A DNA stretch of 64,000 bases from an uncultured Ignavibacteria bacterium (GTDB lineage Bacteria > Bacteroidota > Ignavibacteria > Tepidaquicellales > OLB5), in assembly GCA_937873695.1 (NCBI GenBank), contig CALMYL010000007.1, positions 248,001 to 312,000 of the forward strand, read 5' to 3'. The translations under genes were made by a program, and so were the position numbers. Of the stretch, positions 46,838-47,368 are shown piece by piece; positions within the stretch are counted from its first letter, which is position 1, and every line of letters starts with the position of its first letter. The notes beneath the pieces were generated by a model, which was not told where the DNA came from, did not search any database, and saw only the letters and a program-made list of their open reading frames with translations.

Positions 46838-47047
46838 GTATAGTATTAAATTAATTATAGATTATTTTGGTGCTGCTGAAGAGGACTGTATGCGCAAATA
46901 TAGGGATTTTTGCTTTTATAGGAAACTGAAAAACATTAATGTCTTATATGCTTCTTTTAGATGATTATACAATAAATAACAAAACTCCTAAATGTACAAA
47001 TTGAAGTTTTTTGAATATTGAGTTAATTATAGATGTATCTAGGCAGT

Positions 47048-47250
47048 ATTTTTGTTCTTTTTGTCTTGACACAAAAAGAACCAAAAAAGTCAAGGCTGAT
47101 GAAAAACGACTAAACTTTTCGAACGCTATAGATGCAAAAAATAACTCGTCACGCTTGATACGCACCATAGGTGCGATTTCCGTGACTCAAACAGATTTTT
47201 TGCATCTATACATGCGTTCTCAAGTTTTTAACGCCGTTTTTCATAGGCCG
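47048..47250. repeat. Long compound-hairpin intergenic element
   Basis: In a 530-nt gene gap. A first hairpin (TTGTTCTTTTTGTC/ACAAAAAGAACC, ~47050-47085) adjoins a ~150-nt nested structure. Outer arms TGATGAAAAACG (47098-47109) and CGTTTTTCATA (47234-47244) enclose ACTTTTCGAACGC/GCGTTCTCAAGT. Inside them are TATAGATGCAAAAAAT (47127-47142) and ATTTTTTGCATCTATA (47195-47210), and the tip is CGCACC-ATA-GGTGCG (47161-47175). Apparent frames across it are by-products of the symmetry. From memory, relatives of this element are widespread in Bacteroidota intergenic regions. It may be a mobile repeat or a structured RNA. Confidence 0.65.
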
Positions 47251-47368
47251 TTTATGATATGTTATTAAGGTATCAGGACTTTTATTGAATGTTTTTTTGT
47301 CAATTGCGCATTATTGAGCCGCGCTTTTTGCGGCGAAACCTTACTTCGAAGGAGGAAGGCTAATTGAT

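Follow-up and report, generated by a model that had tools for sequence, protein, structure and literature searches.

What is the long, palindrome-rich intergenic stretch at positions 47048-47250 of the window, the 64,000-nucleotide stretch of DNA from an uncultured Ignavibacteria bacterium analysed here? The original prediction described a compound hairpin and offered two identities for it, a structured RNA or a mobile repeat. We find that it is a copy of a real, phylum-wide, mobile and structure-conserved DNA repeat, for which we found no name.

Architecture of the window element

The element sits in a gap (46838-47368) bordered by two leftward genes, a peptidase gene (M16 by inspection) and a small-protein gene. 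Folded as DNA, 47048-47250 reaches -52.7 kcal/mol on the bottom strand (z = -9.46) and -51.2 kcal/mol on the top strand (z = -9.43), and on neither strand did any of 200 shuffles fold as well; the RNA fold of 47000-47300 gives z = -6.06. All of the nested arm pairs named in the original prediction are present, as are the perfect tip CGCACC-ATA-GGTGCG and the separate left hairpin, and the reading frames that it had called false (46965-47168 on the minus strand and 47011-47268 on the plus strand, both crossing the element) are indeed by-products of the palindrome. A feature that it overlooked is a pseudoknot, in which the loop of the left hairpin (hereinafter P1) at 47065-47070 pairs with 47089-47094. 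The same architecture emerges from single-sequence folds made without a covariance model. The parts are given below on the plus strand; the folding strand is probably the reverse complement.

47048..47250, + strand (orientation of the original prediction): whole element, from copies, models and DNA folds, its outer boundaries placed to within about 25 bases
47054..47081, + strand: P1 hairpin, arms 47054-47064 / 47071-47081, loop CTTGAC at 47065-47070, conserved across genera
47089..47094, + strand: GTCAAG, pseudoknot partner complementary to the P1 loop CTTGAC, covarying among copies
47094..47249, + strand: long arm P2, pairs 47094-47097/47246-47249, 47099-47108/47235-47244, 47112-47117/47222-47227 and 47121-47126/47214-47219
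47127..47210, + strand: inner stem P3, 16 bp, perfect, 47127-47142 / 47195-47210
47143..47147, + strand: AACTC, conserved and unpaired, 5' of the tip
47148..47186, + strand: replaceable tip hairpin, pair 47148-47153/47181-47186, differing between orthologous copies
47161..47175, + strand: small palindrome CGCACC-ATA-GGTGCG nested within the tip
47186..47194, + strand: CTCAAACAG, conserved and mostly unpaired, 3' of the tip
47225..47234, + strand: TTTTTAACGC, conserved (TTTCTTAACGC in many copies), opposite CTAAA at 47110-47114 in a conserved internal loop

Copies in the same genome and relatives in other families and classes share one plan: P1, an A-rich spacer, the partner strand of the P1 loop, GCTAAAA, AACTC-tip-CTCAAACAG, TTTAACG, TTTCTTAACGC and a closing AGGYCG, with a hairpin forming one end and AGGYCG the other. 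In many Bacteroidales-type copies (L181, L184, L187, L196, L220, L231 and L241) a second conserved hairpin, GGGGCTTTGCCCC-AACCCC, abuts P1 on the left.

A family spread across the Bacteroidota

With the element as query, about 20 true copies were found in its own genome. Ten of these served to build a covariance model, which recovered 20 copies there, detected the family in 12 of the 13 genomes of the genus and also matched relatives in other families and classes. The search across Bacteroidota that the original prediction had proposed, run with a second covariance model that includes P1, places the family in at least 103 of 395 genomes and at least 50 of 170 genera, the counts being lower bounds because seven candidates were scored per genome. 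A pattern combining P1 with its partner strand matched more than 116 stretches in genomes of named species, nearly all of them Bacteroidota (including Flavobacterium, Chryseobacterium, Polaribacter, Pedobacter, Dyadobacter and Paludibacter), and the second covariance model confirmed full element structures at pattern matches in the named genomes. Outside the Bacteroidota the pattern scan gave one Chlorobi and one Calditrichaeota assembly and a few likely stray matches. Phage sequences yielded no element match, plasmids one partial match, and viral contigs four by the P1 pattern.

The original statement that similar sequences with varying arms occur in many Bacteroidota is borne out, and so is the expectation that the element is unnamed: Rfam, searched under both strict and loose thresholds, returned no family matching it, and the papers covered by a literature search gave no description. 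An element found in at least a quarter of the sampled genomes of a major phylum is apparently without name or annotation, and it breaks assemblies (one contig ends inside a copy) and creates false reading frames.

Covariation of the arms and the pseudoknot

Among 104 distinct copies, 26 of the 27 modelled pairs have changed on both sides, and the covariation score is 0.581, compared with 0.146 for shuffled copies and at most 0.097 with slid partners. The pseudoknot provides the cleaner test, because the alignment was fitted to a model from which the pseudoknot is absent. Its mean complementary run is 5.37 versus 4.40 after shuffling (maximum of 300 shuffles, 4.69), and it covaries via six pairings (CTTGAT/ATCAAG, CTTGAC/GTCAAG, CTTGAA/TTCAAG, GCGAT/ATCGC, GCCG/CGGC and TGTCC/GGACA). 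The tip stem likewise covaries between species (CACGC/GCGTG, CCGGC/GCCGG, CCGAT/ATCGG). The original prediction had called for a test of compensatory changes and had named missing arm covariation or missing copies elsewhere as results that would speak against it; the arms covary and copies elsewhere exist. Covarying secondary structure, a mark of structured non-coding RNA, is present, and folded DNA would be expected to show the same.

Probably single-stranded DNA rather than RNA

The pair cells are 93% Watson-Crick. Among about 2,740 cells, G-U accounts for 30 on the top strand (1.1%) and 52 on the bottom strand (1.9%); structured RNAs are normally far richer in G-U than this. The near-absence of G-U speaks more for an element acting as single-stranded DNA than for an RNA gene. 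Intergenic copies have no fixed orientation relative to gene strand (arrangements of the neighbouring genes: -- 17, +- 16, ++ 11, -+ 9), and a simple search for sigma-70 promoters and terminators, which leaves out Bacteroidota-type promoters, gave nothing above chance.

The two strands are not equivalent. Where an isolated mismatch interrupts otherwise good helix, it reads C-A, C-T or C-C on the top strand in 55 distinct contexts, corresponding to the well-tolerated G-T, G-A and G-G on the bottom strand, and the reverse kind occurs in 8 contexts. The bottom strand is also the better fold in 91 of the 104 copies. From the mismatch kinds and the better fold we infer that selection acts on the bottom strand, most likely as single-stranded DNA; the mismatch asymmetry could also arise from strand-biased mutation.

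Mobility and tip turnover

At the orthologous site upstream of the M16 gene, the element is absent in five genomes of the genus (G011, G005, G002, G009 and G008), whose M16 proteins are 85-97% identical; in a further genome, G003, a contig end falls inside an element at this site. The five genomes that lack the window copy at this site show the family to be mobile. Of the two identities originally proposed, the mobile repeat thus gains support from empty orthologous sites, and the structured RNA loses ground through the scarcity of G-U and the lack of a gene orientation. A syntenic block shared by G000 C23, G009 C1 and G002 C1 likewise has some element sites in common and some empty. No target duplication was seen, including at the empty site of the window copy, and the element ends are inexact.

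Copies at common sites have nearly identical arms, with the tip and the P1 loop exchanged for other short hairpins. The CGCACC-ATA-GGTGCG palindrome is carried by some copies and not by others, including the one at the same site in another species, and TCCCGCATCAAGTGCGGGA in the P1 loop is present or absent between orthologous copies.

A local same-strand rule

The copies lie between genes. Neighbours within 20 kb are on the same strand in 43 cases and on opposite strands in 2; in the genus, neighbours 0.9-20 kb apart give 29:0, a count that includes sites shared by descent. In three complete genomes the same:opposite numbers are 23:0 below 0.9 kb, 5:1 at 0.9-20 kb and 7:8 beyond 20 kb, and the last of these values shows that the rule is local, not replichore-wide. 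A link to the replication strand via GC skew is weak overall (50/83) and absent in the named genomes (29/55). Of the 13 copies in G009, 12 fall within 69 kb, and the elements at C1:597-614 kb alternate with different genes in one orientation.

Head-to-tail arrays of 2-6 copies with a period of about 310-480 bp are seen in several complete genomes (G133 C1:4341006-4348001, L530; G247 C1:3517279-3572742; G344 C1:1354309-1355475, L528), so that part of the same-strand neighbours reflect simple tandem duplication. In G133, two arrays separated by 6 kb are divergently oriented. Within the class, many copies are located in surface-polysaccharide-like clusters (G009 C1:597-614 kb, L337, L346) containing epimerases, aminotransferases and probable flippases.

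The search for a mobilising enzyme

Searches of RAYTs, integrases and flanking proteins tied no transposase or recombinase to the element. RAYTs were the first suspects because they are common in element-bearing genomes, with Y1_Tnp genes in 23 of the 24 tested, and because 'atypical structures', unusual hairpin DNA elements, are described flanking genes of the Bacteroidetes-specific RAYT subclass 2.6 (PMC6006769). We rejected them as partner on finding the element within about 1.5-2 kb at 0 of 53 RAYT loci (8 in the same genome, 30 and 15 in others). G153 carries the element and has no Y1_Tnp match. Three RAYT genes of the element's own genome (L031 C12:47438, L032 C23:134308 and L033 C20:27695) are each flanked by arrays of their own short REPs (GACCCCTACGGGGTC, CCCACGGCTGAAGCCGTGGG and CACCGCTTCGCGGT), several such families existing in one genome.

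Of 14 tested genomes, 4 carry integron integrases that pass the cut-off; the genomes tested within the genus carry none. Integron integrases too were rejected as partner, the element being nearby at one of six (G333, 1.9 kb away) and at none of the other five. In G073, G365 and, in part, G377 the element flanks or has invaded an integrase-primase module; because the module's relatives in G085, G214, G354 and G154 are without the element, it looks like an insertion into the module, which was rejected as its carrier. The module recurs in the class (L330, L335, L378-L381) and comprises an uncharacterised 280-aa gene, HTH_17, a tyrosine recombinase and Prim-Pol/PriCT_2; in two genomes of one genus the hairpin element lies at roughly codon 9 of its integrase.

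No common neighbour gene family was found among 103 flanking proteins of named genomes, and of 101 proteins close to copies in relatives at the class and phylum levels, the known integrases and sugar-nucleotide genes are the only ones to recur. In G196, several copies adjoin a truncated transposase gene (C1:199160, C11:450487, C8:15006), with which they were apparently amplified; other copies in this genome do not, and an insertion-sequence partner was rejected.

Interpretation

The element is best read as a member of a new REP/BOX-like family of non-autonomous mobile DNA whose mechanism we infer. We assign a probability of about 0.5 to the proposal that this non-coding, non-autonomous mobile DNA repeat of Bacteroidota acts single-stranded and depends on an enzyme supplied in trans. 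Such an element would act while exposed as single strand, for example in a lagging-strand gap or on a displaced strand, where its bottom strand would fold into the long arm and the P1 hairpin, locked by the loop-to-strand pseudoknot. A putative enzyme would recognise the folded shape and copy or move the element elsewhere within the same single-stranded stretch. Movement confined to one such stretch would lead to local, same-orientation spread, and insertion or exchange of short palindromes in exposed loops may underlie the turnover of the tip. Palindrome-perfecting template switching could keep the arms complementary without a binding protein.

Template switching, together with tandem duplication and gene conversion, might even suffice for a passive repeat that has no dedicated enzyme or function, as the near-identical head-to-tail arrays, the almost perfectly Watson-Crick arms and the exchange of tips between copies would lead one to expect. 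We regard this as unlikely, since the unpaired motifs and the pseudoknot are deeply conserved in numerous families and classes of Bacteroidota and new copies appear at unrelated intergenic sites. A structured RNA, whose copies would be transcribed and serve as small RNAs or as signals for RNA processing, with mobility incidental, would accord with strong covariation and with the RNA-like look of a hairpin-adjacent pseudoknot and conserved unpaired motifs. However, G-U makes up 1-2% of cells on either strand, gene orientation is inconsistent, the simple sigma-70 and terminator search gave no promoter or terminator, Rfam holds no match and unrelated hairpins freely replace the tip, all of which renders an RNA rather improbable.

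Two further explanations appoint a specific enzyme. A REP-type repeat of a RAYT (TnpA-REP), possibly of the subclass 2.6 with 'atypical structures', is suggested by the hairpin elements reported beside such genes (PMC6006769) and by the prevalence of Y1_Tnp genes; it strikes us as quite unlikely given that none of the RAYT loci has the element close by, that the inspected RAYTs of the same genome carry their own short REPs and that G153, which has the element, gives no Y1_Tnp match. An attC-like recombination site of a tyrosine recombinase, with a folded bottom strand and one-orientation arrays with genes between, draws on the bottom-strand asymmetry, the single-orientation gene-element-gene layout at G009 C1:597-614 kb, the integrase genes adjoining the element in G073, G365 and G377 and the integron integrase in G333. 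This is highly doubtful, as the five other integron integrases and the related modules of G085, G214, G354 and G154 are without the element, integron integrases over the cut-off are missing from the genomes tested within the genus, and element insertions move no gene along. A broader proposal, and a long shot, is a previously unrecognised single-stranded-DNA recombination system in which the knotted hairpin is a directional, attC-like bottom-strand site for an unknown or host recombinase and same-strand arrays reshuffle genes; if so, genes between same-strand copies, for instance in surface-polysaccharide loci, would be gained, lost and reshuffled. With hypervariable arms and a fixed fold and local orientation, the repeat offers a test case for the recognition and spread of folded single-stranded DNA.

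Comparison with known systems

The kind of element is already known, namely a non-autonomous intergenic palindromic repeat. REP, BIME and REPIN sequences, mobilised by RAYTs, are likewise intergenic, palindromic, multi-copy, non-autonomous and probably single-strand DNA. However, REPs are 20-40 bp long, compared with about 200 bp and a pseudoknot here; they have a GTAG/GGAG tag at the 5' foot, of which there is none at the element ends in the copies listed, and they flank RAYT genes, which the element does not (0/53 loci). MITEs, including those of Porphyromonas and Cardinium in the Bacteroidota, resemble it as short non-autonomous mobile repeats, but their terminal inverted repeats, derived from a DDE transposon, and their target duplication are not seen in the element, whose ends are inexact.

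The likeness to attC sites lies in the folded bottom strand and in one-orientation repeats with genes between (43:2; genus 29:0). A conserved bottom-strand GCGTTAAG is, by eye, near the attC R box GTTRRRY (GTTRRRY/RYYYAAC) without matching it. The element is longer than most attC sites and forms solitary insertions without cassettes, and attC arrays adjoin an integron integrase whereas the element is near 1 of 6 integrases over the cut-off.

ERIC and BOX sequences are imperfect palindromes of about 100-200 bp, intergenic and modular, and are not known to have a mobiliser. The element shares these general features and differs from them in its phylum-wide distribution, its covarying pseudoknot and its local same-strand rule. 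Among non-autonomous intergenic palindromic repeats it is a distinct variant, set apart by its size and pseudoknot, by the signature of the bottom strand and by the local rule of orientation.
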